A program made the translations under genes and the position numbers. This document shows, in pieces, positions 538 to 16,855 of a stretch of DNA of 26,052 nucleotides (the first letter of the stretch is position 1; every line of letters starts with the position of its first letter). The stretch is from a virus. Under the pieces are notes generated by a model that did not search any database, was not told the DNA's origin, and worked only from the letters and a program-made list of their open reading frames with translations. The DNA lies in the IMG/VR virus record IMGVR_UViG_3300025400_000073, positions 1 through 26,052 of that record, one strand, 5' to 3'.

Positions 538-545
538 TATTTATC
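538..545 (-). promoter_or_regulatory. Late promoter box GATAAATA for the left partial gene
   Basis: The minus strand reads GATAAATA, matching the NATAAATA late box of T4-like phages. It overlaps the stop codon of the upstream cytidylyltransferase-cupin gene and ends 7 nt before the ATG at 530. By T4 geometry transcription would start about 2 nt before that ATG, giving an almost leaderless RNA. It would add late expression to a gene at the end of an early operon. Confidence 0.6.
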
Positions 546-1275
546 TACGCTCTATATCTTCTTCAGAGCACTCAGGTCCGTACTGTATTTCTATCATTTT
601 AAGCGGGCTAGGGAATGGGTTAGCTAGTTGATGCCATTCTGTACGTGCTACAAAGTAGCTACCATGTACTCCTAATGTGGTTATACCAGTATCGTTTTTA
701 ATCTGCGCCATGCCCTCAGTTACTTTCCAATACTCGCTACGCATACGATGCCGTTGCATACTTAACTGTTTGCCCGGCTCGACTACTAGTTCCTTAACTT
801 TTGTTCCTGGAATGTCATATAACACTCGGTAATAGCCCCAGGGGCGGTAGGTTTTAGGCGCTTTCCAGTCCTCAAGGATCCAGCTACTACTATTGGCCTT
901 ATCTTCGCCGCCAACGCCAAACACAAACTCCACACCCTCTACTGACATTTCAGGAATGTTTACGGCTGTACGATCTCCGCCGTTGGCAAATACAAACTCT
1001 GCGTAAGGGAATTGCTTTTTAGCCCATTCTAGTAGTTGACAGGCACTTCCGTCGCGGTCGTCAAACCCGTATACTGTATCAACTGATTTGATATTCATTA
1101 GGATCGTTTCACGTTCTAAGAAAGGCATAAATGCACGACCTTTTTTACGTTCTAGCCAAGCATCTGAGTTAAGGCCAACCATTAAAGAATCGCCTAGCTT
1201 ACGAGCCGCATTGAGATAGGCAATATGCCCGGAGTGTATAGGATCAAAGCCGCCTGTGGCGATTACAATTTTCAT
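541..1275 (-). CDS. Bifunctional nucleotidyltransferase-cupin (cytidylyltransferase + type II phosphomannose isomerase-like domain)
   Basis: Residues 1-135 form a cytidylyltransferase-like nucleotidyltransferase of the TagD/RfaE2 class. The nucleotide-binding motif GGFDPIHSGH (8-17) contains HxGH, and NSSSWI (about 128-133) takes the place of the usual C-terminal ISSTxI motif. Residues 137-244 form a cupin like the C-terminal isomerase domain of ManC/type II PMI proteins (KTYRPWGYY, then MQRHRMRSEYW, then WHQLANP and EIQYG). Visible metal-ligand candidates are H176, E181 and H215; the second His of the usual HxH is Met178. Known family chemistry is activation of a sugar or polyol phosphate with CTP and sugar-phosphate isomerisation. 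Which substrate is used here is unknown. The ATG overlaps the methyltransferase stop (TAATG), so translation is probably coupled. Confidence 0.82.
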   Translation of the reverse strand: MKIVIATGGFDPIHSGHIAYLNAARKLGDSLMVGLNSDAWLERKKGRAFMPFLERETILMNIKSVDTVYGFDDRDGSACQLLEWAKKQFPYAEFVFANGGDRTAVNIPEMSVEGVEFVFGVGGEDKANSSSWILEDWKAPKTYRPWGYYRVLYDIPGTKVKELVVEPGKQLSMQRHRMRSEYWKVTEGMAQIKNDTGITTLGVHGSYFVARTEWHQLANPFPSPLKMIEIQYGPECSEEDIERR

Positions 1276-2953: not shown

Positions 2954-4083
2954 TCTGTAACTTCCTCTTTCTTAGATTTCTTAGACTTTGTTTCTACTTC
3001 TTCAATAATCTCACCAGTTTCTTCATCAATTGTTACAGGAGCAACTGCTTCTTTGTGATGTGGATTGTCAATAAAGTCTTTCATTACTTTGTCTAAGCAA
3101 TTATCTTCATTACGTTCCCATGCCTTACGGAACTTCTTAATAATTTCGCCGCCTGTAACTGTATAAACTAAACTGTTACCTTCCTTCTTAAGCATGTCTT
3201 TACCTTCAAACAAGTCAACTAGTCCAGAGTAGGGATTCATACCTTCTTCGTACGGAATCTTAACCTGTACTGATTCAAAAGGTTTAGCATAACGAGTTTT
3301 CATAATCTTACAAGCGGCACGGATGCCTTTTACTTCTGAGATCTTGTTGCCATCTTCGTCTTCTTTTAGTTTTAACTTACGCATTGCCACAACGATAGAG
3401 GAAGCGTAGATAAAACCCTGTCCACCGCTGATTTTGTCATCGGGATCAAACATATCCTGTGATGCGTATGTGTGTGCTGTACACACTAGTCCTAGATTCA
3501 AACTACCAAACATATTAACACAGTTACGAACTAGTGCAGCAAGTGCTTTGGGCTTACGACCCATATCGCCTTTCATATCGCCTGCTTCGAATTGGTTAAC
3601 GTCTGTTGGGGTTAGCAACATACCCAATGAGTCAACTACAAACAAGACTTTTGGACGCTCTAACTCGGGTAGTGTTTTGTATTCCTTGACAAACTCGCTG
3701 ATCATCTTACCTACATCGTCGATCATAGCCATATTTAGTTTCAGAAGTTTGTCTTCTGATGTGTCTACATTGAGTGCGTGTAACCACTTTTCATCAAGTG
3801 CGTTTTCGCTATCAACTAGGATAACATAAATGCCTTCCTTCTGTGCATTAGCAACTAAGTTACCCGAACAGATAAACGATTTACCTGCGCCAGATTCTCC
3901 AGCAAACACAGTAACTTTACCTAGTGGCACACCTTTATTAAAGTCGCCACTGATTAGATAGTTAAGAGCATAGTTGTTTGTACTGATCCAGTCTGTAGGA
4001 TCTGTAAAGCCAACGGAGATACCGTCGATACTTTTTGTAATGCTCTTACGAAATTTTGATACGTCAAATGGTTTAGTTGCCAT
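2950..4083 (-). CDS. uvsX: UvsX, RecA-like strand-exchange recombinase
   Basis: A 377-aa protein, close to T4 UvsX (391 aa). It polymerises on ssDNA and catalyses ATP-driven strand exchange for recombination-dependent replication and repair. The Walker A motif is GESGAGKS (62-69); Walker B is VLFVVDSLG with Asp151. The L1/L2 region carries EAGDMKGDMGRKPKALAALVR and SGGQGFIYASS, typical of UvsX. The C-terminal 30 residues are acidic then Lys-rich (KSKKSKKEE), a likely partner- or DNA-binding tail. A good Shine-Dalgarno, AAGGAAAA, precedes the ATG and lies inside the 3' end of the upstream radical SAM gene, which overlaps by 11 nt. Confidence 0.95.
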   Translation of the reverse strand: MATKPFDVSKFRKSITKSIDGISVGFTDPTDWISTNNYALNYLISGDFNKGVPLGKVTVFAGESGAGKSFICSGNLVANAQKEGIYVILVDSENALDEKWLHALNVDTSEDKLLKLNMAMIDDVGKMISEFVKEYKTLPELERPKVLFVVDSLGMLLTPTDVNQFEAGDMKGDMGRKPKALAALVRNCVNMFGSLNLGLVCTAHTYASQDMFDPDDKISGGQGFIYASSIVVAMRKLKLKEDEDGNKISEVKGIRAACKIMKTRYAKPFESVQVKIPYEEGMNPYSGLVDLFEGKDMLKKEGNSLVYTVTGGEIIKKFRKAWERNEDNCLDKVMKDFIDNPHHKEAVAPVTIDEETGEIIEEVETKSKKSKKEEVTE

Positions 4084-5227
4084 GATAGTTTTCCTTGATG
4101 TTATATAAATCTTTAAAAATTTTACTGCTATCTAAATTGCGTCGCTGATCCAGTATATATAGCTGTTCCAACGAACCTGCAAAATCTTTTACAATTGGTT
4201 GATCTAAGTAGTTTAACATATTCTTATAGCTATCTTCAAGTAGATATCCAGGTTGTTTACTAATTCGTTCTACCAATGTTTCCTTAACTGATTGTAACAC
4301 AGAATCTGGTAAATGTCTAATGTTTAGGTGTTCTGGAGTAAGCAATGGACCAATGATAAATGAGTTATTATGGAATCCTAATCCCGTTAGATAATCCACA
4401 CACCCAAATATTGTTTGATAGTTTAATATAAAGTGTAGCATATTAAAACTGATCTTATGGTCTCGCTGTTTAATAGCAGTTAGGTTATCCAAAAAGTCTG
4501 TCCATTTACCGCCATATCTAATGTACTCAAATTCTTCTTCAATAGTTTCTACACTGACAATCCAATGTACATTTTTAAATTCGCAGATGCGATCAAATAC
4601 TCGAGTATCTACTTTACTCAGGTTTGTATTAATACGTAGATTAACATCTGGATCTAATAAGTCTAATAATTCTAAATTCTCTTTCATCAGCAATGGCTCG
4701 CCACCTGCTAGATAAACGTGCTTTAATTGTTTTGCATGTCGAAATATGTACTCTTTAAAGTCGGCACGTTGTTTGTCAGTTGGAACTTGTTGTTGAGTAT
4801 TTAATTCGTCTGCCCACTTACTGCTAAAGCGTGGACCACAATATGTACAAGCAAAGTTACATAGGTTAGTCCAGCGTACATCAATTGTATGTAGATCAAA
4901 GTTGTTAACTCGATATGTATCTAATGGTATTTGTTTAAGTTCTCTAATATAAAATTTACGATCACTAACAATATCAAAACTTGTTTTACCTACTTCCAAA
5001 TTATGACAAGGCTGACAGTTACTAGGCTTTTGTTTATCAATGATCATTGCTTGCCTAGCAACATTAATATTATTAGACAGTATATCTTCTATTTTGTCAT
5101 TACAAATATTTCCCAATCTACTGGCACTACGAATACAGTTCTTAACATCACCGTCAAAGTTGTACATAAGCCCAGTCCAGGGCATAGGACAAAATGCAGG
5201 ATTAGTTAATACGTCTTTAGGTGTCAT
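4073..5227 (-). CDS. Radical SAM protein with N-terminal Cys-rich (twitch-type) auxiliary region
   Basis: A 384-aa radical SAM enzyme. The CxxxCxxC motif that holds the [4Fe-4S] cluster is CNFACTYC (C123, C127, C130), and the SAM-binding GGEP is at 175-178. An N-terminal region has further cysteines (C13, C31, C42, C71, C74), consistent with an auxiliary Fe-S cluster of the twitch/SPASM kind. Family chemistry is 5'-deoxyadenosyl radical modification of a peptide, sugar or nucleoside; the substrate is unknown. It starts at an ATGA overlap with the SDR gene and overlaps uvsX at its end. It is one of two radical SAM genes flanking the SDR gene. Confidence 0.87.
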   Translation of the reverse strand: MTPKDVLTNPAFCPMPWTGLMYNFDGDVKNCIRSASRLGNICNDKIEDILSNNINVARQAMIIDKQKPSNCQPCHNLEVGKTSFDIVSDRKFYIRELKQIPLDTYRVNNFDLHTIDVRWTNLCNFACTYCGPRFSSKWADELNTQQQVPTDKQRADFKEYIFRHAKQLKHVYLAGGEPLLMKENLELLDLLDPDVNLRINTNLSKVDTRVFDRICEFKNVHWIVSVETIEEEFEYIRYGGKWTDFLDNLTAIKQRDHKISFNMLHFILNYQTIFGCVDYLTGLGFHNNSFIIGPLLTPEHLNIRHLPDSVLQSVKETLVERISKQPGYLLEDSYKNMLNYLDQPIVKDFAGSLEQLYILDQRRNLDSSKIFKDLYNIKENYHGN

Positions 5228-5775
5228 TGTTTGCGAAATGGTACAAGTGATATTTCAGGAATCCATAAATCTGGACCAGCCGAATCTAATATTTTAACTA
5301 GAGTTTCTGCCCATACAGCAGGATCTGCCATACCAGGTCTTGGCTCATCGTGAAACTGTGTATTAACTGCGCCTGGGCGCACTAGAATAATTCTAGGACC
5401 TTTTTTACTGTGACGCAGTTGCATACACGCTTCTTCTAGTGCTACTTTTTGTACACGATATTCGTCCATGTCAAATCCCGGAATTGGATTAACTGGCATT
5501 CTAGTCATGTGTGTACTAACTACAATAATTTGTTTCTTAGGTTCTGCGATCCATCGTTGAAATACATCAAACAATAAATCTGTTTGTGCGTATCCTGCCT
5601 GAGCATTGTTAATAAAAATATCAGCTGGTTCTATTTCTGTGGCTATCTTAGGAACACTTTTAATATTGTGTCCATTACTACGACTAAGCCCAATAATTTC
5701 GTGTCCCTGCTCTGCGTAAATTCTAGCAAGCTCTTTACCAATGCCCTGTGAGTGTCCTGTAATTGCTATTTTCAT
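5224..5775 (-). CDS. Short-chain dehydrogenase/reductase (SDR)
   Basis: A 183-aa protein, shorter than the usual ~250 aa SDR but with the core complete. The cofactor loop is TGHSQGIG (6-13), NNA is at 56-58, the likely catalytic Ser is in VVSTHM (S87), and the YxxxK pair is Tyr106/Lys110 in EYRVQKVALE. After the active site comes RPGAVNTQFHDEPRPG, the usual P-G motif. Expected reaction is NAD(P)-dependent oxidation or reduction of a hydroxyl/keto group, for example on a sugar. It has ATGA-type 4-nt overlaps with radical SAM genes on both sides, so the three products are probably made in fixed ratio and may act in sequence (inference). Confidence 0.85.
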   Translation of the reverse strand: MKIAITGHSQGIGKELARIYAEQGHEIIGLSRSNGHNIKSVPKIATEIEPADIFINNAQAGYAQTDLLFDVFQRWIAEPKKQIIVVSTHMTRMPVNPIPGFDMDEYRVQKVALEEACMQLRHSKKGPRIILVRPGAVNTQFHDEPRPGMADPAVWAETLVKILDSAGPDLWIPEISLVPFRKQ

Positions 5776-6707
5776 ATATCTCTCAATAATTCTTGATCTA
5801 ACATAAACCCGTTTAATTCAAGTTGGTTGTTTCTGTCTACTGCAACTTTGCCGGGAATAACATCAGCATAAGGTAATGTCATATTGTTCTTGTACTTAAC
5901 ATTTAATTCGTCTGGCGTATTTAAAAGTGCCCAAGAATGTAGTAAATTGTGTTCTGCTACAAATGATTTAATGTTATCAAAGTCGCTAATGTTTAATGCG
6001 CTGACTGTGGTCCACGTATTTAATTCTGTCAGTGGCATAGACTTGTAGGTCATTAGGTTTGTATAAAACTTATCCCACTTAATGGGCCAACGCACACGAT
6101 CGTGTACTTCCCCAATGCCATCTAAGCTAACTGTAACTGTAACTTCAATACCACGTGCTAGTACTTCTGCCAATTCGTCAATGATTAAACTACAATTAGT
6201 ATTAACTCTGATGCTACGAACATTCTTGGGCAAGTTTGCTAATATTCGTCGATAGTTTTTACTAGCACTAGGTTCACCACCGTTTAAATCTAAATGTACA
6301 ATACGATCTTGCGGTAATGACCAAAAGCCCTGTGTATTATCCACAATAGGATATGTCTTACTAGTTAAGCTACCAATCTTTGTGCTTAGTCCCTCGTGGC
6401 AAGTTAAGCAAGCACTATTACATACATTGTCTAATACTCCACCTACAATTAAATAGTCTGGATTAGTTTGTTTCTTATCGAACTCTATTGCGTTTAGTCT
6501 AATGCTTGTTCCGTTTACTTCTTCTGTTTGCTGACAACGGATACACTCTGCCGGCCAGTCCATGTATCCACGTAAGACTCTATTCCATTTACTAGAATCC
6601 ATGTCCTCTAGTGTACTAAACTTGGGTGCATTAACCATGTGGCCACAACGGCTAACTGTGCCATTGTGATTAAAGCGTACAAAGTGATCTAGTCTAGGAC
6701 AGCGCAT
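5772..6707 (-). CDS. Radical SAM protein (second copy type)
   Basis: A 311-aa radical SAM enzyme with C96, C100 and C103 in CNSACLTC, and LDLNGGEPSAS with GGEP at 143-146. Extra cysteines at C3, C21, C55 and C58 (SRCGH, CIRC) suggest an N-terminal auxiliary cluster, as in the other radical SAM gene of this operon, but the two proteins are quite diverged. Later barrel strands show IRVNTNCS and VTVSLDGIGEVHDRVR, typical of SPASM/twitch enzymes. The substrate is unknown. It overlaps the sulfotransferase gene by 19 nt and the SDR gene by 4 nt. Confidence 0.85.
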   Translation of the reverse strand: MRCPRLDHFVRFNHNGTVSRCGHMVNAPKFSTLEDMDSSKWNRVLRGYMDWPAECIRCQQTEEVNGTSIRLNAIEFDKKQTNPDYLIVGGVLDNVCNSACLTCHEGLSTKIGSLTSKTYPIVDNTQGFWSLPQDRIVHLDLNGGEPSASKNYRRILANLPKNVRSIRVNTNCSLIIDELAEVLARGIEVTVTVSLDGIGEVHDRVRWPIKWDKFYTNLMTYKSMPLTELNTWTTVSALNISDFDNIKSFVAEHNLLHSWALLNTPDELNVKYKNNMTLPYADVIPGKVAVDRNNQLELNGFMLDQELLRDI

Positions 6708-8441: not shown

Positions 8442-9893
8442 TTATTTTACCAAACCGGCTAAATTACGTAAAAAATCCAAATCGTCGCTTTCGGTAACTG
8501 GTTGGTCCATTGTAGTGTTACCGTATTGATCGTTCGGATGTGATTCTTCTGGACTAACAGGTGCTGTCCAATTTGTCTGTGCGTCACGACTATTATTGTT
8601 TCCAATTTCCATTTTGTCAAGTAAATTAGGCATGTTGTTTACCATCCACTGTTTAACCAATGGTGTAACATCTGCGTCTGGTCCTTGACTTCTTAGCAAT
8701 TGATCAATACCGTCGTTTAACTCATCTGATCCAATGAGTGGTTCTAGTTTGCTTTGTGCATCACTGGCATGGATAGGAGTTTTTAATAATTCTCTTAGAG
8801 CACGAATCTTATCTGCAGAGTCTGGTTTAGCCCAAGTTGACTCTGTTACTTCATTGGCCCATTCAGCTAGTTCATCACCTAGCTGTCCAGCGGCTTCTGA
8901 TTTATATTTTTTGTATGCGTTGTATACAATAGGAAGTGCTTCTGTAAAACGATCATCATAGATCTTTTTAACAAAACGTTCACGTAGTGCATCAACATCA
9001 ACATCATTCTCTTCTAAAGGATTTTCTGCTGGAGTCCAGGTTTCAAAATAACTACGGTATCCACGAGCGCCACGCATTTGGCGTAGTGTACGTTTTAGTT
9101 GATCATAATGATGTACAGCACTACAAGTCATGTCTGCTGTTTCTTGGTCTTCAAATTGGCGATGCTTAGTACTACGCACAAAATGCTTCATTGCCGACAT
9201 TTCTTTAATAATGCCGTCAATATGTTCTGCACGTTCGTCATGCAAATCACCACCAGCATTTAAATGCTCGGCCATAGCATACGCACCGTGTAGGTTTGTG
9301 TGGTTTAATAAGAAGCGTTCGCCGCGTTCTGTTTCCAAAAAGATTTCTTGGATTTGGCGAGCACGGCTTCCGCGAACTTCATCATTTACTTTGTCTTTGT
9401 GACGAATAAGAATTTTAGTGTTGCCTTTGTCAGCAAAACTATTATATGGGCGACCGCCTTTGCCGTATAACTTACTTTCAGTTACTGGGACATCGGCAGT
9501 TGTAAATGCGTCATCTGTTTTAGCTTGTTGTTTTACGTCTTGTAATTCTAAATTAGATTTATTAATATCACGTGTGTCAAATGTTAATAAATTGCGTTTT
9601 GCAAATAGTCTTAGATTGCGTAAGAATTCATACCATTCTTTACGCTGTTCGCGATCCATCTCAGCAGAAATGTTTTGTCCAAAATATACTTTTAAACTTG
9701 TTTCGTCAATTAGACTTATAGTCACTGTGCCAAATTGTGCGCCGTCTTGGCCTGTATAGGTAAAGTTGAAAAACCGTGCGGTTTCGGGATCTGTAGCAGC
9801 CTGAGCTTTTTCGTCGCCCAACGTAACATTGCTGAAACGTGTGCGGATCTTATCAAAAAGTGCTGATGCGATGGATTCTATTTCTTTAGACAT
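8442..9893 (-). CDS. Uncharacterised 483-aa head-type protein with VTE|S sites and C-terminal LAG motif
   Basis: No known fold recognised. Landmarks are a GGRPYNSFADKGNTKILIRHKD block (about 146-167), RQIQEIFLETERGERFLLNHTN (179-200) and a helical second half. Three V-T-E-S sequences (137-140, 349-352, 466-469) match the T4 prohead protease pattern x-x-E|(A/G/S). The last one directly precedes the C-terminal segment DLDFLRNLAGLVK. That segment shares a D-x-L-x-x-L-x-x-LAG-L pattern with two other proteins of this window. The start is preceded by a late box 5 nt upstream and by no Shine-Dalgarno. Position directly after the gp17 terminase and late control suggest a virion or head-internal protein (inference). 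Confidence 0.75.
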   Translation of the reverse strand: MSKEIESIASALFDKIRTRFSNVTLGDEKAQAATDPETARFFNFTYTGQDGAQFGTVTISLIDETSLKVYFGQNISAEMDREQRKEWYEFLRNLRLFAKRNLLTFDTRDINKSNLELQDVKQQAKTDDAFTTADVPVTESKLYGKGGRPYNSFADKGNTKILIRHKDKVNDEVRGSRARQIQEIFLETERGERFLLNHTNLHGAYAMAEHLNAGGDLHDERAEHIDGIIKEMSAMKHFVRSTKHRQFEDQETADMTCSAVHHYDQLKRTLRQMRGARGYRSYFETWTPAENPLEENDVDVDALRERFVKKIYDDRFTEALPIVYNAYKKYKSEAAGQLGDELAEWANEVTESTWAKPDSADKIRALRELLKTPIHASDAQSKLEPLIGSDELNDGIDQLLRSQGPDADVTPLVKQWMVNNMPNLLDKMEIGNNNSRDAQTNWTAPVSPEESHPNDQYGNTTMDQPVTESDDLDFLRNLAGLVK

Positions 9894-9898
9894 AAAAC

Positions 9899-9906
9899 TA
9901 TTTATC
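9899..9906 (-). promoter_or_regulatory. Late promoter box GATAAATA for the 483-aa gene
   Basis: The minus strand GATAAATA starts immediately after the gp17 stop codon. It ends 5 nt (GTTTT) before the ATG at 9893. T4 late-promoter geometry would put +1 on the A of the ATG, giving a leaderless mRNA. Confidence 0.65.
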
Positions 9907-11469
9907 TTAGATCATTATGAAAGGCATGGGTTCGATAAAGGTATCTAAGCTGTCTTTAAGCTCAGAATCTAGCCCAGAATCGAACTGTTGTAGCATCATA
10001 ATCATGCGTATAGCTAACAATGTGCTCATTACTAAGTCATCGTGCTCGCCTATTTTAGCCGCATAACTAGTACCTGCGGCAACAAAGTTCTTTAGTTCGC
10101 TAATCAATGCTTTACTAGCAATAACTAGTCTGCGTGTTTCAACCAAGCTCTTAAATTTAGCACAAGCACTTATTTTGGATTTATTTGTTGTTGTAAAGCC
10201 TTTGCGGTAGCGTACACCCGCGGCTCCTTTTTTAGGCTCACTTAAGAATGTGCCTGGAATGTTTTCTTCGCCAATTTCATTAATAGCTACGAGAGCGGCT
10301 TCGCCTAGAGTATTGTTTTCTACACTATAATAAACATTGTTATTGCCAACTGTGTCTGCTAAGTATTGGCAAATTTCTTTCATAATAACGCATTGACGTT
10401 GTACAATAGTTTTATTGTGACTCCATTCAGCTACTTGTTTTAGTCCAGGCATTTCAAATACCTGTATTGCTGCAGGGTCTGAACCTGTGCCTAAACTAGG
10501 ATCTAATGCTACTACATAAGTCTTATCTCGTTCGGGACGTTTGTACCAGCGTATTTGTCCTTGCTTTTCAATTGGGTCTATACCGCCCATCTCTGCCAAG
10601 AACAATGGATTGATTAGTGTTTCGTCAAAGATAATAAATTCACATTCCATCTCACGGCGGAAACGTTCTTCGCCTAACTGTGCTAACATCTCTGCAGCCC
10701 ACTTCTCGTCGCGGTCTGGGTGTTCTTGCCACTTACTGCGGAATGCTTTAAACCCGTTAACGCCAAGTTCGGTTTCGTTACCAAACTCATCAAAGCACTT
10801 GTTAGCTTGACGCCAAATTTGTGCAAACTGATCTTCGTCTGAGTTTGGTGTTGATGTAATAATACATTTACCACCTGTGGCTAGTGTAGGAGTAATGGAA
10901 GTCCAGAATTCACTCGCAATAGTAGGGCGAACGAACGCAAACTCGTCACAGTATAGTAGTGATAGTGACATACCGCGTCCTGTGTTTTCTGTTGTTGTCT
11001 GACTTACAATACGACTTCCGTTTTCAAAGTCTAGTGATCCTTTGTTATAACTAGTAACACCTGCTCGAATAAAGTCCGGGCAGTTCTCATAAGCATAACG
11101 AACACGTTGCATAATCTCTTGTGCGCCCAAATACTTGTGTGCGGCTACAAGAATAGTAGAATCCGGAACAAACATAGCATACCACAGCAAATATCCCACG
11201 GCACTAGTCGATTTGCCCGTTTGTCTTGGCATTAAGCTGATAGAGTATCTATAATTGTGATATGTATCAATTAGTCGTTCTTGATACTCAAATGGATGAT
11301 ATTGTATAGCACCCTTAGTTGGATGTTGTATAAAGAAATAATTGTCCATAAAGTGCTGTGGGCCCGTGACGGGGTCAGCACAACGGACGAGCTCTTGTAT
11401 TTGATGCTCGGTGTAAGACATCTTTTTATAAGGTGTCTTAATAATTGCAGTTTCTAACTCTTTACTCAT
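9907..11469 (-). CDS. gp17: Terminase large subunit (gp17-like packaging ATPase-nuclease)
   Basis: 520 aa from the ATG at 11467-11469 (T4 gp17 is 610 aa). The ATPase shows Walker A in MPRQTGKS (80-87), Walker B LLYCDEF (D175, E176) and coupling motif TSTPNS (205-210). The RNase H-like nuclease has VVALDPSLGTG (D323), YYSVENN (E384) and GEHDDLVMS (D477/D478). It translocates DNA into the prohead and cuts at headful. A GTG at 11491-11493 would add 8 residues and overlap the divergent HNH gene. I prefer the ATG because ATTAAATA, one mismatch from the late box, lies 7 nt upstream, the layout seen at other late genes here. The gp16 partner gene is about 5.4 kb away, not adjacent as in T4. Confidence 0.95.
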   Translation of the reverse strand: MSKELETAIIKTPYKKMSYTEHQIQELVRCADPVTGPQHFMDNYFFIQHPTKGAIQYHPFEYQERLIDTYHNYRYSISLMPRQTGKSTSAVGYLLWYAMFVPDSTILVAAHKYLGAQEIMQRVRYAYENCPDFIRAGVTSYNKGSLDFENGSRIVSQTTTENTGRGMSLSLLYCDEFAFVRPTIASEFWTSITPTLATGGKCIITSTPNSDEDQFAQIWRQANKCFDEFGNETELGVNGFKAFRSKWQEHPDRDEKWAAEMLAQLGEERFRREMECEFIIFDETLINPLFLAEMGGIDPIEKQGQIRWYKRPERDKTYVVALDPSLGTGSDPAAIQVFEMPGLKQVAEWSHNKTIVQRQCVIMKEICQYLADTVGNNNVYYSVENNTLGEAALVAINEIGEENIPGTFLSEPKKGAAGVRYRKGFTTTNKSKISACAKFKSLVETRRLVIASKALISELKNFVAAGTSYAAKIGEHDDLVMSTLLAIRMIMMLQQFDSGLDSELKDSLDTFIEPMPFIMI

Positions 11470-11484
11470 ATAAGTATATTTAAT
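11469..11484. promoter_or_regulatory. Divergent late-box pair between gp17 and the HNH gene
   Basis: With gp17 starting at 11469 and the HNH gene at 11483, only 13 nt separate the genes. On the plus strand TATAAGTA (11469-11476) ends 6 nt before the HNH ATG; on the minus strand ATTAAATA (11477-11484) ends 7 nt before the gp17 ATG. Each is one mismatch from NATAAATA. Both would give leaderless or near-leaderless transcripts. Confidence 0.45.
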
Positions 11485-12013
11485 GTCGGACACACTTCTA
11501 CTAAATTCTAATTACGAGCCAATTAGCGTATTACCCCTAAGTGTTATTAATTGGCAACATGCAATCAAACTAATGTATCTAGGCAGGGTTCACGTTCTAG
11601 AAACTTACCCAAATTGGATCATACATAGCGAACGTTTAGCATTAAACGTTCCTAGCATCTGCGTGACTAAGGACTACTTCCACTATAAAAAGAACGTTAA
11701 GTTTAGCCGTTATAACTTATATATGCGCGACTTGTTTGAATGTCAGTACTGCGAAGATGTATTTGACTACGAAGAACTAACAATTGATCACGTCGTGCCA
11801 CGTAGTGCTGGCGGCAAGACTAACTGGGAAAATTGTGTTACCAGCTGTAAGAGTTGTAACCATGCTAAGGGTAGCAAACTAATTAAACCCAAAATGAAAC
11901 CATACAAGCCAGACTACTATAGCTTAGTAGGCAAATGGAAGCAGATGCCATTTAATGTTAAACAAGATTCGTGGTATCAATACTTAGGCAGGGATAAGCT
12001 CGAAGCGGCTTAG
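11483..12013 (+). CDS. HNH endonuclease
   Basis: A 176-aa protein on the strand opposite its neighbours. The N-terminal half (LLNSNYEPISVLPLSVINW, IKLMYLGRV) is the typical leader region of the bacterial/phage HNH group with this opening. The C-terminal HNH domain has zinc-type pairs C87/C90 and C122/C125, the catalytic D102-H103 in LTIDHVVPRSAGG, N114/N117 in TNWENCVTSC, and H127. It should be a metal-dependent nicking or cutting nuclease. Location next to gp17 is compatible with a role in DNA maturation or packaging, as for HNH-terminase pairs in other phages; a free-standing homing endonuclease is the main alternative. Its stop overlaps the convergent 131-aa gene by 4 nt. Confidence 0.88.
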   Translation: MSDTLLLNSNYEPISVLPLSVINWQHAIKLMYLGRVHVLETYPNWIIHSERLALNVPSICVTKDYFHYKKNVKFSRYNLYMRDLFECQYCEDVFDYEELTIDHVVPRSAGGKTNWENCVTSCKSCNHAKGSKLIKPKMKPYKPDYYSLVGKWKQMPFNVKQDSWYQYLGRDKLEAA

Positions 12014-12405
12014 GTATTGTCGGTAAATGTGCGAGGGCGATACTCGGGGTGTTGTTTTAAGTAGGCCTCTACTTTATCCCTAACACTCCCGTTTAGATGC
12101 GGCTTAGTAAAGTTAATAATAAACCATAAATCAGTGCCAGGCATGGCGTGATATTCTTTTTCTAATGCATTGCGTGTTTCAGCAGTGACACTAATATTAC
12201 TACCAATTGGGCTTTCAATACCATCTTCAGTTGCTTGTGGTGCAACATTTTGACCTGTATACATGCCTGCCTCAGCTTCTAGCAGTCCTGTAATACCGGC
12301 TAACTTTTTTAATTCGTATAAATCTTTAGAATCCATAACTGCGTCTGCATCACCTGTTTCTCCAGGCAATACAAAGTTTTCGCTAGTTATGCGATATTGT
12401 TTCAT
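12010..12405 (-). CDS. Small head-type protein with LAG motif, unknown function
   Basis: 131 aa. Residues 28-38, DLYELKKLAGI, match the D-x-L-x-x-L-x-x-LAG motif seen in the 671-aa and 483-aa proteins. They are followed at once by GLLEAEAG, which offers L-L-E|A and E-A-E|A prohead-protease-like sites. The C-terminal half (AETRNALEKEYHAMPGTDLWFIINFTK) looks like a small folded domain I do not recognise. It is translationally coupled to the upstream 135-aa gene (ATGA) and overlaps the HNH gene tail-to-tail by 4 nt. I infer a processed virion-internal protein. Confidence 0.68.
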   Translation of the reverse strand: MKQYRITSENFVLPGETGDADAVMDSKDLYELKKLAGITGLLEAEAGMYTGQNVAPQATEDGIESPIGSNISVTAETRNALEKEYHAMPGTDLWFIINFTKPHLNGSVRDKVEAYLKQHPEYRPRTFTDNT

Positions 12406-12809
12406 TTTTTCTTAAGCGCGATTGCGCCAACTTTGCGTGTTGGACTAACTTTATGTACAGATTCAACTTCCGATGATCCATCGGGTGTAAGTTGTGTATG
12501 ATTAGCTTCCCAACCAAAGGCTTTGGCAGCTTGGTCTAGAATTTTACGCTCGCCTTCGGAGTATGCAGCGGCTACTAGTGACTGACCGTTTGGGCCATCT
12601 TTAGCTGGCTCGTGTTCGTACTTGCCATCTGGTGCTCCGGCACCACCTAAGAAATATGCAGCAAAGCGCCACGGATGATATGGGCTAGAGTTGTCTAAAT
12701 GTTTGTGACTACGCAAACCTGGGGTAGCTGTTTGATGGCTATCAGGAATTCCGTCATTATTAGAGTCGTCTTGTACTTTAGCTTCTGTAATGATTTCTGT
12801 AATTTTCAT
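12402..12809 (-). CDS. Small head-type protein with capsid-targeting-like leader and Asp-rich loop
   Basis: 135 aa. The N-terminus MKITEIITEAKV resembles the T4 capsid-targeting sequence (MKxYxxFIxE|A), including an I-T-E|A cleavage site. It is followed by DDSNNDGIPD, an Asp/Asn calcium-loop-like segment, then SSPYHPWRFAAYFLGGAG and GERKILDQAAKAFGW. No enzymatic motif. A perfect late box TATAAATA lies 7 nt before the ATG and there is no well-placed Shine-Dalgarno. It forms a two-gene late unit with the 131-aa gene. The likely role is a protein packaged in or attached to the head (inference from leader and neighbours). Confidence 0.72.
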   Translation of the reverse strand: MKITEIITEAKVQDDSNNDGIPDSHQTATPGLRSHKHLDNSSPYHPWRFAAYFLGGAGAPDGKYEHEPAKDGPNGQSLVAAAYSEGERKILDQAAKAFGWEANHTQLTPDGSSEVESVHKVSPTRKVGAIALKKK

Positions 12810-12816
12810 AGTATAG

Positions 12817-12824
12817 TATTTATA
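12817..12824 (-). promoter_or_regulatory. Perfect late promoter box TATAAATA
   Basis: The minus strand TATAAATA followed by CTATACT and ATG matches the extended T4 late consensus, in which the box is followed by CTATT. It starts 5 nt after the 3' CCA of the tRNA-like element. Predicted +1 is about 2 nt before the ATG. Confidence 0.7.
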
Positions 12825-12829
12825 CCTTT

Positions 12830-12902
12830 TGGAGCAGTCGGGCAGGCTTCGAACCTTCTTCTCAGTTTGGGACTGTGTTTTACCGGGTTAAACTACGACT
12901 GC
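12830..12902 (-). tRNA. tRNA-like gene with shortened anticodon arm (possible degenerate tRNA)
   Basis: A 73-nt element. A perfect 7-bp acceptor stem (GCAGTCG/CGACTGC) is followed by T and an encoded CCA. T8-A9 are canonical. The D-arm is perfect (GTTT/AAAC) with AA..GG..A loop landmarks. The T-arm has GG-TTCGAAG-CC with 4 of 5 pairs and one extra C before the acceptor stem. Between D- and T-arms only 13 nt, CAGT-CCCAA-ACTG, are available instead of the usual 17-nt anticodon arm, and there is no U33. Read as a 7-nt loop, TCCCAAA would place CCA (Trp) at 34-36, but with C at 33. Either a decayed tRNA or an unusual tRNA-like RNA. The 5' end overlaps the SGNH gene. Confidence 0.5.
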
Positions 12903-14191
12903 GTTGTTTCAAATAAGCCAGGTAAGTTGTTTATCTTTTTATAAAAATAATTAGCTATTGCTTGATGCGTTAGTGGCCCAATTGAAGTGTAAATACCAAA
13001 CTCTACTCTATCCAATGGCACACGAGTATCATCCTTGTTAATAGTTAAATCATAAAAAGGTATGCCAAATTTGGCACAAACACTTTCTAACAGTATTCTA
13101 TTTTTGTGGAAATTATAATTGTTACTTTGCCAGTCAATGTGATCCCACCAATCAGCATAAGGTAAATCATAATTCCTGTGCGTGTGTATGTTGCTTTTGT
13201 ATTTTTTACTAACAAACTCTCTTAGACTGGTGTGTGGCCAATGTACGCATACCGCACTAATGGATGTAGGTAATGTAGTAATAGTTTTTACTCCTACCCT
13301 AGTAATTGTGTCGGCACTAATCCCTTTAATTCCCATATTTAATAATACATTGCTGGGCATACGTTCTTGTAATAATTCCGACCATGTGTTGTTATAGTCT
13401 AAGCCAAACCCAAACAAGTCGCTATCGCCTAAGCATAGTATAATGTCTTTGTCTTTAAGAGTGTCTACTGTGTAGTCAAAGTTAGCTCTATATCCAAGAT
13501 TATTGTATTTGTATTCTTTGCCGTCTGATGCATTAACTGTAATATCCTGTAGTGGCTTAAACATTGTATTTTTTGTTCTAGCAGGTATTTCCCAAGCTGT
13601 AGGCAACTCTGTATTAAAAAATAAATTTTTAAACTTGTCTTTGCCAAGATAATACTCAATGTTATCCTCTGCGGACATATTGGGTTTATTTTGTTCTCTT
13701 GTTACGTAGGTTAATTCTTTTCTATACACAACCTGATCAGCCAAAAAGTCTACTACGTCATTGATTGAATCTTCTACAATTACTTTTAGTTTAACTGTTG
13801 CTGTTTGTTCTAATCGTAGTGGCAAGTTAAACCAATTTTTTGTATTAGTAAAATTTGTTGCTGGAATTGATTGAGCATCGTGTCTTAATCTATAATAGAT
13901 ATTTGTATTGTCATTGGCAGTCGGTGGGTATAATAACACAATATCATCGGAGTGTTGTAATGCAGTTGATATAGTAAACGTAACAGTATTATCCGTTATA
14001 ACACCATCATCTACTTCTAGTGTTATAGAATCCGTGGCTTGATTTTCTGCCCAGGTTTGTGAAGCCAAACTAAAACTTTTGGTTATAGATAAATTATAAT
14101 CGGGCAAGCTGACGGTAACCGTGCCTGCGATTGTTTTATTTGTACCAAAATCAGAGATTGCAGAAAAAGGAAAGGTATATAAAATACTCAT
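12893..14191 (-). CDS. SGNH/GDSL-type hydrolase domain protein, catalytic triad apparently incomplete
   Basis: 432 aa. Residues 1-160 are beta-rich and Thr/Ser/Asn-rich, like a virion adhesion or scaffold domain. Residues about 225-425 are SGNH-like: NNLGYRANFD, then block I LCLGDSDLFGFG (Ser257), block II LLNMGIKG (Gly287/290), and a late strand AVCVHWPHTSLREF where block III should be. The block V region reads YTSIGPLTHQAIANYF, so the usual DxxHPGP lacks Asp and His. If active, it would remove acyl groups from glycans; if not, it may only bind them. A perfect late box is 6 nt upstream and there is no Shine-Dalgarno. Its TAG stop is nucleotides 8-10 of the tRNA-like element. Confidence 0.75.
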   Translation of the reverse strand: MSILYTFPFSAISDFGTNKTIAGTVTVSLPDYNLSITKSFSLASQTWAENQATDSITLEVDDGVITDNTVTFTISTALQHSDDIVLLYPPTANDNTNIYYRLRHDAQSIPATNFTNTKNWFNLPLRLEQTATVKLKVIVEDSINDVVDFLADQVVYRKELTYVTREQNKPNMSAEDNIEYYLGKDKFKNLFFNTELPTAWEIPARTKNTMFKPLQDITVNASDGKEYKYNNLGYRANFDYTVDTLKDKDIILCLGDSDLFGFGLDYNNTWSELLQERMPSNVLLNMGIKGISADTITRVGVKTITTLPTSISAVCVHWPHTSLREFVSKKYKSNIHTHRNYDLPYADWWDHIDWQSNNYNFHKNRILLESVCAKFGIPFYDLTINKDDTRVPLDRVEFGIYTSIGPLTHQAIANYFYKKINNLPGLFETTQS

Positions 14192-14197
14192 GTGAAA

Positions 14198-14205
14198 TAT
14201 TTATA
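14198..14205 (-). promoter_or_regulatory. Perfect late promoter box TATAAATA for the SGNH gene
   Basis: The minus strand TATAAATA is followed by TTTCAC and ATG, a spacing of 6 nt. There is no Shine-Dalgarno between box and start. It lies just after the terminator at 14228-14249, so the SGNH gene begins a new late unit. Confidence 0.7.
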
Positions 14206-14227
14206 GTGTGGAATTTTGGGTAATAAA

Positions 14228-14249
14228 AAAGCGCACCTAAGTGCGCTTT
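14228..14249. terminator. Rho-independent terminator after the 671-aa gene
   Basis: AAAGCGCAC-CTAA-GTGCGCTTT, a 9-bp stem with a 4-nt loop, begins 3 nt past the 671-aa gene stop. On the minus strand it is followed by a U-rich tract (TTTTTTATT counting the last stem bases); the other side is also U-rich, so it may work in both directions. Confidence 0.85.
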
Positions 14250-14252
14250 ATT

Positions 14253-16268
14253 TTATTTGCTAACTTTTTTAATACTTTCGTATTCTTCAGCTAACTTAGA
14301 TTCTAACTGTGCTACAGATTTTAATACTTGCTGTGCGTTAGTCATTGGGTTAGCAGCCTTATTAGCTGTACCTGGATCTTGACGCTTTTCACGATTCATA
14401 TCATCACCTTGTGTAGTAATGTTTTTGATTGTACCGTATTTTGGGTCTGGGCTATTAGCTGGCTTCTCAGCAGGTTGATCAACGTCAACTGCTTCTTCAT
14501 CAACTTCTGCTTCTGGTTGGCCAACAACAACAAACTCGGCGCCTTCATCGTCGCCCATTTCTGGTTCAGCTTGTGGCTGTTGTAGTGCTTGTGCAGCTTC
14601 ACCGTTGCCTAGACCAGCGATGCGTAACATTTGTAACAAGCTAGCGGCATGCTCGCCTGTAGCTGTTACTGTAACGTTCTTTTCGCCGTCACTGCTCATA
14701 TTTGTACTAACATTGAATTCGCTAGCATCAGAACCAGGAACTTCCATACCTTCTTTAACAGGATATGTCTTGCCATCAACTTCAACTTTTTCGCCAGGTT
14801 GTACACCGTCGACTTTGGCGTCACGTACTGCTTTACCAAATGGATTGCCTTCTTCCATGTCATCTTCTTCGTCAACTTCCGACTTACTGGCGTTGCCTGC
14901 TACAGGAATATCCTGTTGCCCAAATGCATCAACTGTTGGCTTGCCTGCAGCTTTAGTCTTTAGCCATTGACCGCGCGACTCTTCGGATAAACCAGCTAAA
15001 CGTGCTAGTTCATTTAATTCGTCTGCCATGTCGGTTGTGCCTTCTTCTTTTTCTTCGTAGTAATCACGAGGATTGTTTAAACGATCCATTTTACCAGGAA
15101 CTGGTAAATTACCAGGGATACCAGGTTGAGGATCGCCAATTGCTTCACTCTCTACACCGTAGTCTTCTGCATTGGCAGGATCTTTACCGTAGGCTTTGTC
15201 GGCTAATAGCATATCTAAACGGTCATGAATAAATTCTACTGGGTCACCATCACGTGCTTTTTGTGTACCATATGGCATTTCACCATTTTCACTGTAGTAG
15301 TCAAATAATGCATGATACAAATCAGTGTTGTAAATATCTTCGCCTGCTTCAAATCTTTTAACATCGTGCTTGAAACGATTTAAAATATGATCTAATGTTT
15401 CGCCGCTTTCATCAATTAAACGACCTTCTGTAATTAAATCTTGTGTTAGGTTATTCATTTTATCTTCTAATGTTTCGCCGACCATTTTGTGTACTCGTGT
15501 TTTATCTTTTGGCCACTTCTTAGTTGGATTTGCATCTACTTTAGGTGGGTTACCGCCCCAAGGCATACTAGCCTGTGAACGATCTTTAGTAGCCATCTTA
15601 GGACGTCCACGGCCTTTTTTCTCTGTTGATGCTGCAGGTGCATTATCATCTTTGTCTAGGTCAGGAACATCACCACGACTTAATTCTTTTTCTGTATCAA
15701 CTGTTGCTTTACTCTTATGGATTGTACCTTTAGCAGTTGCAACTTTTTCACCACCAGTGTGTGTAGTTTCGCCTTCTTGCATACCCATTCTTTTTAATTT
15801 TCTTTTAATTTGTTCGTCACTAAGACCATGAAGTTTCATGGATTTAATTGCAGCTGCTTTTTGTGCTGCGGAAACAATAGCATCTCTATCATTGCCTTCT
15901 TGCATACTGTGTAAAGAACATTCGCCCATAGCACAACCAGCGCATTCATCTTTACGTCCAGCAACACTACGACGTGTCATTTCTTTTTGTCCAAGTTTCT
16001 CACGGCCAGCAGCGGCAGTAATAGCATCAGCACTGGCTTTGCTCTTACCTGTTTTTTGAATTGCTGTACTCATCTTACTAAAATCACTTTCAGCAAATGA
16101 CTTGGCTAGTTTAGCTTGAACCGCATCTACGCCGGAAATAATAGATCCTTGGGCTTCTACACTTTCGTAAATTTGTTTTACTGTAGCATCATGCTTTTCT
16201 TGTGCTGTTGGTTTTAGTGCAGCTAGTTTACCTAAGATGGTATATAGATTATCGTCGTGGTGGCTCAT
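14253..16268 (-). CDS. 671-aa low-complexity head-type protein with AT-hook core, LAG motifs and protease-like sites
   Basis: A mostly disordered acidic/Lys-rich protein, not recognised as a known family. A Cys cluster CAGCAMGEC lies at 109-117. An AT-hook core RGRP in KKGRGRPKM (R220-P223) suggests minor-groove DNA binding. DELNELARLAGL (416-427) and LLQMLRIAGL (544-553) are LAG motifs. Sites fitting the T4 prohead-protease pattern are FAE|S (58-61), MQE|G (122-125 and 163-166), ITE|G (279-282), IDE|S (285-288), MEE|G (471-474) and VKE|G (504-507). A helical domain (about 262-360) includes HILNRFKHDVKRFE. Shine-Dalgarno AAAGGAAAG precedes the ATG, 2 nt after the previous gene. The likely role is a processed prohead-core or DNA-associated internal protein (inference). 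Confidence 0.75.
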   Translation of the reverse strand: MSHHDDNLYTILGKLAALKPTAQEKHDATVKQIYESVEAQGSIISGVDAVQAKLAKSFAESDFSKMSTAIQKTGKSKASADAITAAAGREKLGQKEMTRRSVAGRKDECAGCAMGECSLHSMQEGNDRDAIVSAAQKAAAIKSMKLHGLSDEQIKRKLKRMGMQEGETTHTGGEKVATAKGTIHKSKATVDTEKELSRGDVPDLDKDDNAPAASTEKKGRGRPKMATKDRSQASMPWGGNPPKVDANPTKKWPKDKTRVHKMVGETLEDKMNNLTQDLITEGRLIDESGETLDHILNRFKHDVKRFEAGEDIYNTDLYHALFDYYSENGEMPYGTQKARDGDPVEFIHDRLDMLLADKAYGKDPANAEDYGVESEAIGDPQPGIPGNLPVPGKMDRLNNPRDYYEEKEEGTTDMADELNELARLAGLSEESRGQWLKTKAAGKPTVDAFGQQDIPVAGNASKSEVDEEDDMEEGNPFGKAVRDAKVDGVQPGEKVEVDGKTYPVKEGMEVPGSDASEFNVSTNMSSDGEKNVTVTATGEHAASLLQMLRIAGLGNGEAAQALQQPQAEPEMGDDEGAEFVVVGQPEAEVDEEAVDVDQPAEKPANSPDPKYGTIKNITTQGDDMNREKRQDPGTANKAANPMTNAQQVLKSVAQLESKLAEEYESIKKVSK

Positions 16269-16270
16269 TA

Positions 16271-16855
16271 TTACTTTCCTTTTGTTGGGCTAGAGATTTT
16301 GTTTTGTTGCGATCCTACGGGGCTCTTGTCACCCAGTGGTGCTGTATTTGTCGTGGCACCTGTTGCATTACTATCTTGTGCAAAATCAAACTTACGTGAT
16401 TCTAATTCTTTTAACAAACTTCCAACGCGGACCTGCCCAGCTAGTGCTTGAGCTTCTGGCTCATCTTGTAATTCAGTTTCGTCTAGTAGTGCGCCTTCAT
16501 GGTCTTTGCCATGTAGTTCTTGTTCTTCAGTATCAATTGATTCGCCTAAGGTACGCACACAAATCCAATCAGGATTGATGCCAGCACGTTCTTTAAGAGT
16601 TTGGCGGATTGCTGGTACTGTTGTAGGATATGCAACCTTAACATCAAATGTCCAACATTCGCAAGGACCCCATTTTGGAAATTCACGATGTTCCTGAATT
16701 GGGATACTTTTAACAGCACTAACACTTTCAAGTTGATAAGTGTCTAGAGCATTTTTAATTTGGTCCATAACAGTACTTGGATTTACTGTGGCCATTTTAA
16801 TACGAAATTCGTATGGTTTGTTAATTTCAAAAATGTAAGACTGAAACGGTTTCAT
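16271..16855 (-). CDS. Conserved head-type protein with capsid-targeting-like leader
   Basis: 194 aa. The N-terminus MKPFQSYIFEINKPYEF closely resembles the T4 capsid-targeting leader MKxYQxFIxE, though the residue after the Glu is Ile, so cleavage there is doubtful. Residues 18-105 form an alpha/beta domain (FRIKM, ALDTYQLESVSAVK, WTFDVKVAYPTTVPAIRQTL, WICVRTLGE) resembling an uncharacterised protein of T4-like cyanophages. The C-terminus is disordered, acidic then Ser/Thr/Asn-rich. It has a Shine-Dalgarno (AGGAT) and a late box 22 nt upstream. It lies between gp16 and the 671-aa protein and is probably cotranscribed with the latter. I infer a prohead-associated role. Confidence 0.7.
   Translation of the reverse strand: MKPFQSYIFEINKPYEFRIKMATVNPSTVMDQIKNALDTYQLESVSAVKSIPIQEHREFPKWGPCECWTFDVKVAYPTTVPAIRQTLKERAGINPDWICVRTLGESIDTEEQELHGKDHEGALLDETELQDEPEAQALAGQVRVGSLLKELESRKFDFAQDSNATGATTNTAPLGDKSPVGSQQNKISSPTKGK

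Follow-up and report, generated by a model that had tools for sequence, protein, structure and literature searches.

Three otherwise unrelated late proteins encoded around the terminase gene of a jumbo phage, and the end of the gp22-like prohead scaffold of its relatives, share, judging from their sequences, one short motif, which its carriers have at either terminus or internally. Its form, h-x-x-h-x-x-L-[AS]-G-[LIM] (where h is hydrophobic), is that of a short amphipathic helix, and we call it the LAG motif. We put at roughly 60% the probability that, in this clade of jumbo T4-like phages, the LAG helix docks proteins, the scaffold and passengers alike, into the prohead core.

Origin of the window

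The window, that is the whole stretch of 26,052 nucleotides analysed here, is a 26-kb IMG/VR virus fragment whose source, as its genes indicate, is a freshwater jumbo T4-like phage akin to PA5oct, RaK2/GAP32 and Atu_ph07. The large subunit of its terminase (gp17-like, recognised by profile and sequence matches; 9907..11493, minus strand), a landmark lying between the motif carriers, is at most 54% identical to the terminases of PA5oct and of Sinorhizobium phage Phosso, those of the RaK2/GAP32/121Q types being more distant. The gene order (sheath, tube, gp4-like nuclease, 194-aa protein, terminase, 483-aa protein, SSB, UvsX) is the same in PA5oct, and this order together with related terminase, gp22 and gp23 proteins places the phage in the RaK2/PA5oct/Atu_ph07 type. 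Searches of PHROG and Pfam with the 671-aa, 135-aa and 131-aa proteins gave weak matches and nothing useful, and among isolated phages no relatives of the 671-aa and 131-aa proteins turned up by tblastn. Hence the loci used for comparison, and with them the relatives of the window proteins, were taken from scans of IMG/VR.

Copies of the motif in the window

The initial annotation had described a D-x-L-x-x-L-x-x-LAG-[LI] pattern in three proteins, with a looser fourth copy, and every copy was recovered where it had been placed. DLDFLRNLAGL (8451..8483, minus strand) spans residues 471-481 of the 483-aa protein, where just VK remains before the stop codon; DLYELKKLAGI (12292..12324, minus strand) forms residues 28-38 of the 131-aa protein; DELNELARLAGL (14988..15023, minus strand) forms residues 416-427 of the 671-aa protein, which also holds the looser copy LLQMLRIAGL at residues 544-553 (14610..14639, minus strand). 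The D-x-L beginning turned out to be loose, two copies reading DL..L..LAG and one DEL..L..LAG. A scan of the window in six frames returned these four copies and one non-coding match. The proteins of the window contain three strict copies of L..L..LAG[LI], against a mean of 0.0029 and never more than one in 20,000 shuffles per protein; this pattern was picked after the data had been seen, and the real test is its occurrence elsewhere. The recurrence of the motif in the window is real and not due to chance.

Conservation in the three carrier families

The motif is kept in 80 of the 86 near-full-length IMG/VR homologues of the 131-aa protein (12010..12405, minus strand) and in 64 of the 67 of the 671-aa protein (14253..16268, minus strand), although these counts, like all family counts and site excesses given here, overstate independence, as the database rows share descent. 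L-A-G is invariant among 45 aligned sequences of the 131-aa family, and relatives of only 64-77 aa carry the motif at their N-terminus. In the 671-aa family the motif is the most conserved window of ten residues (mean pair identity 0.74 among 46 aligned sequences, against 0.22 for the protein as a whole and 0.09 and 0.11 for the motif flanks); on this alignment it is a conserved island within a fast-evolving protein. The looser copy, whose conservation window scores 0.42 (91st percentile), recurs in relatives as L[LM]QML[KR][IL]AG[LM].

The 483-aa protein (8442..9893, minus strand) belongs to phrog_13484, a family of virion structural proteins. Among 97 distinct C-termini of this family, 69 end with LAG and seven with LSG; five further members stop at NMTY, NITY or NMTF, where the motif tail would start, and of the remaining 16 about half have looser variants of the tail (for example EREQMKKLAGLK) while a few have no tail. 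Since five members stop where others continue into the motif, the tail looks like a removable C-terminal module. Loss of the tail by frameshift was considered and rejected, as no downstream frame encodes it. The PA5oct homologue, gp278, is without the tail and yet was detected in virions by mass spectrometry (MS), so that the tail is dispensable for the incorporation of this family into virions. The homologue in Phosso carries the motif at its C-terminus.

AlphaFold2 (AF2) models the motif of the 483-aa protein, with modest confidence, as a short helix following a disordered linker, and that of the 131-aa protein, with low confidence (mean pLDDT 65), as a helix at residues 25-34 with a disordered linker after it. 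In both models the motif helix would thus be set off from the folded part by a disordered linker, an arrangement that suits a linear docking motif. In a fold search of the PDB, no match to the 483-aa model fell below an E value of 0.18, and its matches in a viral library are uncharacterised phage proteins. We also considered reading the motif as an ssrA-like C-terminal degron and rejected this, because internal and N-terminal copies exist.

The C-terminus of the gp22-like scaffold

Whole-genome scans of relatives revealed a fourth carrier, encoded outside the window: a gp22-like prohead scaffold of 368-373 aa, whose gene sits between those of the gp21-type protease and of the gp23-type capsid protein, and which is annotated as a gp22-like scaffold in 121Q. 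The motif (...VFEMKRLAGLN or similar) forms its extreme C-terminus in 49/49 close relatives. It also ends gp22 in eight more distant phages: PA5oct (VEELRRLAGIK), Atu_ph07 (INDLKRLAGIKK), Phosso (IHELRRLAGIEK), Vibrio 2.275 (LDRLTKIAGIRK), GAP32 (LDEIAKLSGMDKKR), 121Q (LKELDVLSGINKK), XacN1 (AKNMMKLAGIKG) and G013 (IVNIKRLAGLRS), the last of which was found independently, its gp22 being absent from the search pattern. Across nine gp22 proteins with a median identity of 36%, the glycine of the motif is invariant. The motif is not a property of the gp22 of any T4-like phage, an idea that we rejected, for the gp22 of cyanophages, of KVP40-like phages and of RL38J1 ends otherwise. The end of T4 gp22 (IVSVYAKVASRF) may hold a faint echo of it, which was not counted. 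The PA5oct scaffold, gp330, is not among the proteins that the record annotation gives as MS-detected in virions, as expected if the scaffold is degraded.

A helix at the end of a scaffold could also serve the self-assembly of the core, the carriers co-polymerising with gp22 through core-core contacts and the motif having no part in binding the shell. The hxxhxxL spacing fits helix packing, and the internal proteins of T4 are reported to co-purify with gp22 (PMC9026906). However, the motif lies at the extreme C-terminus of gp22, past a variable linker and apart from the long body, and it is through this position that herpesvirus scaffolds are described as binding the capsid protein (PMC12474303). 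We regard a core-core helix as rather unlikely.

Occurrence in other proteins and genomes

Strict matches number 3-6 in each of four freshwater jumbo genomes against about 0.5 after shuffling, most of them in gp22 and the three families of the window. A position-weight scan gave 7-8 matches per freshwater jumbo genome against 0-3 after shuffling, the top ones being again gp22 and the window families. The motif is not equally common elsewhere: two cyanophage genomes showed it at chance level, with no excess over shuffles. In GAP32 and XacN1 it is convincing in gp22 only, and hence its sharing with other proteins depends on the lineage. A match in the PA5oct ATPase gp149 and regular-expression matches in GAP32 look accidental and lie in unrelated proteins.

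In PA5oct, gp281, which occupies the gene position of the 671-aa protein, has two LAG copies, at residues 4 and 245; it and gp249, both late LAG carriers, are recorded in the genome annotation as found in virions by ESI-MS/MS. With gp278, which was detected as well, albeit without the tail, PA5oct virions contain both the homologue of the 483-aa protein and the protein encoded in the position of the 671-aa one. Phosso has further proteins with the motif besides its 483-aa homologue. Atu_ph07 carries it in gp111 (MDIERLKILAGL) and in gp257, a Nudix domain (hydrolase) with MNIDKLKKLAGI as an N-terminal extension that holds the motif. When N-terminal copies were sought with a DNA pattern, four contigs matched, an earlier and very strict pattern having had no matches. 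One of the four is G013, where a protein of 670 aa ends with ...LERIQMLAGLFHSEKE and the next protein starts with MDLEYLKKLAGI; two others encode 71-aa proteins starting with MDIDTLKRLAGI; the fourth looks like a chance match.

It could be argued that Leu-rich helices ended by Ala-Gly are low-information caps which arose by convergence and have no common partner, as the motif is short and a few of its matches in unrelated proteins look accidental. We consider this very improbable in view of the excess over shuffles, the island-like conservation, the same design of the scaffold C-terminus and the modular gain and loss of the tail.

Protease-like sites beside the motif

The initial annotation had also noted protease-like sites next to three of the copies. 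VTES directly before the 483-aa tail (8487..8498, minus strand), which resembles a gp21 cleavage site, and LLEA after the 131-aa copy (12274..12285, minus strand) are as it described them; EEG is present before the 671-aa copy and shows no sign of conservation. We searched for [LIVM]-x-E↓[ASGNT] (the arrow marking the cut) in the 12 residues beside the motif, taking distinct flanks and shuffling each of them. A site occurs upstream of the motif in 35/74 flanks of the 483-aa family (6.2 +- 2.4 in shuffled flanks), and downstream of it in 29/80 flanks of the 131-aa family (7.8 +- 2.7) and in 19/63 flanks of the 671-aa family (5.0), where the sites cluster as LAGLxVxE↓S/N/G. For gp22, the 12 residues ahead of the motif show no such enrichment (1/39 against 4.1 in shuffled flanks). 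The association thus stands above local shuffles in the three families of the window and does not extend to gp22. The N-termini of gp23 in the clade have a plausible L-x-E↓(S/N/T) maturation site (MLRE↓SATAG in GAP32, MLAE↓NASAG in the relative G001). With the specificity of the protease inferred in this way, cleavage of the passengers beside the motif is plausible.

Such clustering, upstream of C-terminal copies and downstream of internal ones, would also follow if the motif recruited the gp21-type protease, or presented the substrate to it, so that adjacent sites get cut, with no role in targeting; T4 gp22 is indeed reported to be a substrate of the protease (PMC9026906). Against this, sites close to the motif are not in excess in gp22, its strongest and most widespread carrier, and many copies in the 131-aa and 671-aa families have no such site. 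Protease recruitment as the sole role is, in our judgement, quite improbable.

Comparison with known targeting peptides

The closest functional parallels of the LAG motif are, by analogy, the capsid-targeting sequence (CTS) of T4 and the scaffold tail of herpesviruses. The CTS is described as a short peptide of hydrophobic pattern which brings the unrelated internal proteins IPI-IPIII into the prohead core and adjoins a gp21 site, its residues 4 and 7 directing targeting and its residues 8 and 10 processing; the same source has T4 gp22 cut into multiple fragments (PMC9026906). It is reportedly not conserved in other core proteins (PMC9958956). The LAG motif resembles it as a short patterned peptide in unrelated proteins; protease-like sites beside it are enriched in the three window families and not in gp22. 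It differs in sequence from the CTS (MKTYQEFIAEA) and in being mostly C-terminal or internal and present on the scaffold as well, whereas the CTS takes up about ten residues at the N-terminus; the copies in the window are C-terminal or internal, and N-terminal ones were found only in the mini-relatives and in Atu_ph07 proteins.

The tail of the herpesvirus UL26/UL26.5 scaffold is described as an extreme C-terminal segment that the scaffold protein has in common with the protease-scaffold precursor; it attaches to the major capsid protein, and the maturation protease clips it off (PMC12474303). Like it, the LAG tail is a conserved extreme C-terminal peptide of a scaffold, as gp22 of the 49 close and eight distant relatives attests; unlike it, the LAG motif has only about ten residues and occurs on non-homologous proteins. 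The likeness is functional, with capsid binding conjectural, and no sequence relationship is claimed. T4 Alt and the SPN3US protease have C-terminal propeptides which the prohead protease removes, and a targeting role has been proposed for that of the SPN3US protease (PMC9026906, PMC7411985); with 64 residues the latter is much longer than the LAG motif, and the passages on these propeptides describe no LAG motif. We found no description of the motif in the open-access literature, and an earlier report elsewhere is possible.

Two proteins of the same cluster have N-termini like the CTS itself. The 135-aa protein starts with MKITEIITEA (12780..12809, minus strand; family consensus MKI.EIITE[ASGD]), which contains I-T-E↓A and resembles the start of T4 IPIII, MKTYQEFIAEA. 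The 194-aa protein (phrog_14802, virion structural protein) starts with MKPFQSYIFE (16826..16855, minus strand), and its PA5oct homologue, gp282, was detected by MS. Among the MS-detected proteins of PA5oct, N-termini like the CTS show no significant enrichment (3/93 against 3/345, p=0.11). Judging from the LAG carriers and these two N-termini, genes for the prohead core seem to be clustered between 12 and 17 kb.

Discussion

Its presence in three unrelated late proteins and at the scaffold end of relatives makes it probable that the motif acts as a reusable tag by which proteins dock as they enter the immature head. The earlier proposal for the window, one signal shared for docking or packaging in the prohead, is well supported by the gp22 C-terminus across the clade and by the carriers in PA5oct virions. 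Under docking into the prohead core, scaffold and passengers would share a receptor surface, for which the inner face of gp23 or its propeptide region is the likeliest candidate and the gp22 core or the portal a less likely one, and the motif would carry the passengers into the assembling prohead. More speculatively, the gp21-type protease might then cut the adjacent hydrophobic-x-E↓(S/A/N/G) site, which would free the passengers for the mature head, the scaffold being degraded.

We advance more tentatively, as something short of an even chance, that the shell-binding peptide of the scaffold was copied, or converged, onto unrelated proteins, including the Nudix hydrolase of Atu_ph07. It would be a position-independent cargo tag, by which chosen proteins are loaded through mimicry of the scaffold end, beside a separate CTS system of T4 type in the same cluster.

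A peptide common to scaffold end and passengers would give a concrete and testable docking code. The motif points to uncharacterised proteins of jumbo phages which are likely to lie in the prohead core, and it could serve as a packaging tag.

Gene order between the terminase and the 671-aa protein

An HNH endonuclease gene (11483-12013, +), probably that of a homing endonuclease, is inserted on the opposite strand with the terminase gene on one side and the 131-aa gene on the other. The gene of a 432-aa protein (12893-14191, -), for which we found no family match, is flanked by the 671-aa and 135-aa genes. It looks like an insertion, since in the relative G001 the 671-aa gene directly overlaps the 131-aa gene.

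N-terminal and C-terminal sequence patterns

Two proteins begin like the T4 capsid-targeting sequence: MKITEIITEA (12402-12809, -) and MKPFQSYIFE (16271-16855, -). Similar starts (MKLRELFEA, MRLTKLFEA, MKITEILQE) are seen in many adjacent genes of the related contigs L452, L454 and L455, one of them on a nucleotidyltransferase-like protein. Cyanophage gp22 (L406:1943-2965 and L409:1820-2923) ends in a pattern of its own, GSMxxY[VL]..., which is confined to gp22 in the two cyanophage genomes scanned.

Enzymes and the LAG motif

In one product of the window (541-1275, -), a cytidylyltransferase-like domain is fused to a mannose-6-phosphate isomerase/cupin domain. Four genes (all -) form a cluster downstream of the gene for SSB and around uvsX: 4073-5227 codes for a radical SAM/SPASM protein, 5772-6707 for a product with a second, weak radical SAM match, 5224-5775 for a short-chain dehydrogenase-like protein and 1275-2030 for a methyltransferase.

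In relatives, the LAG motif, the candidate prohead-core docking tag, has further carriers. Two small proteins starting with M[RK]A[SA]EILR.[ML]AD.I hold a copy (G001:238410-238811, -; G003:141046-141345, +), and both have a large, variable protein as neighbour; their positions are syntenic. The Nudix hydrolase gp257 of Atu_ph07 (L451:2574-3020, -) carries the motif in an N-terminal extension, MNIDKLKKLAGIKKDE, and may be an enzyme cargo bearing the LAG tag.
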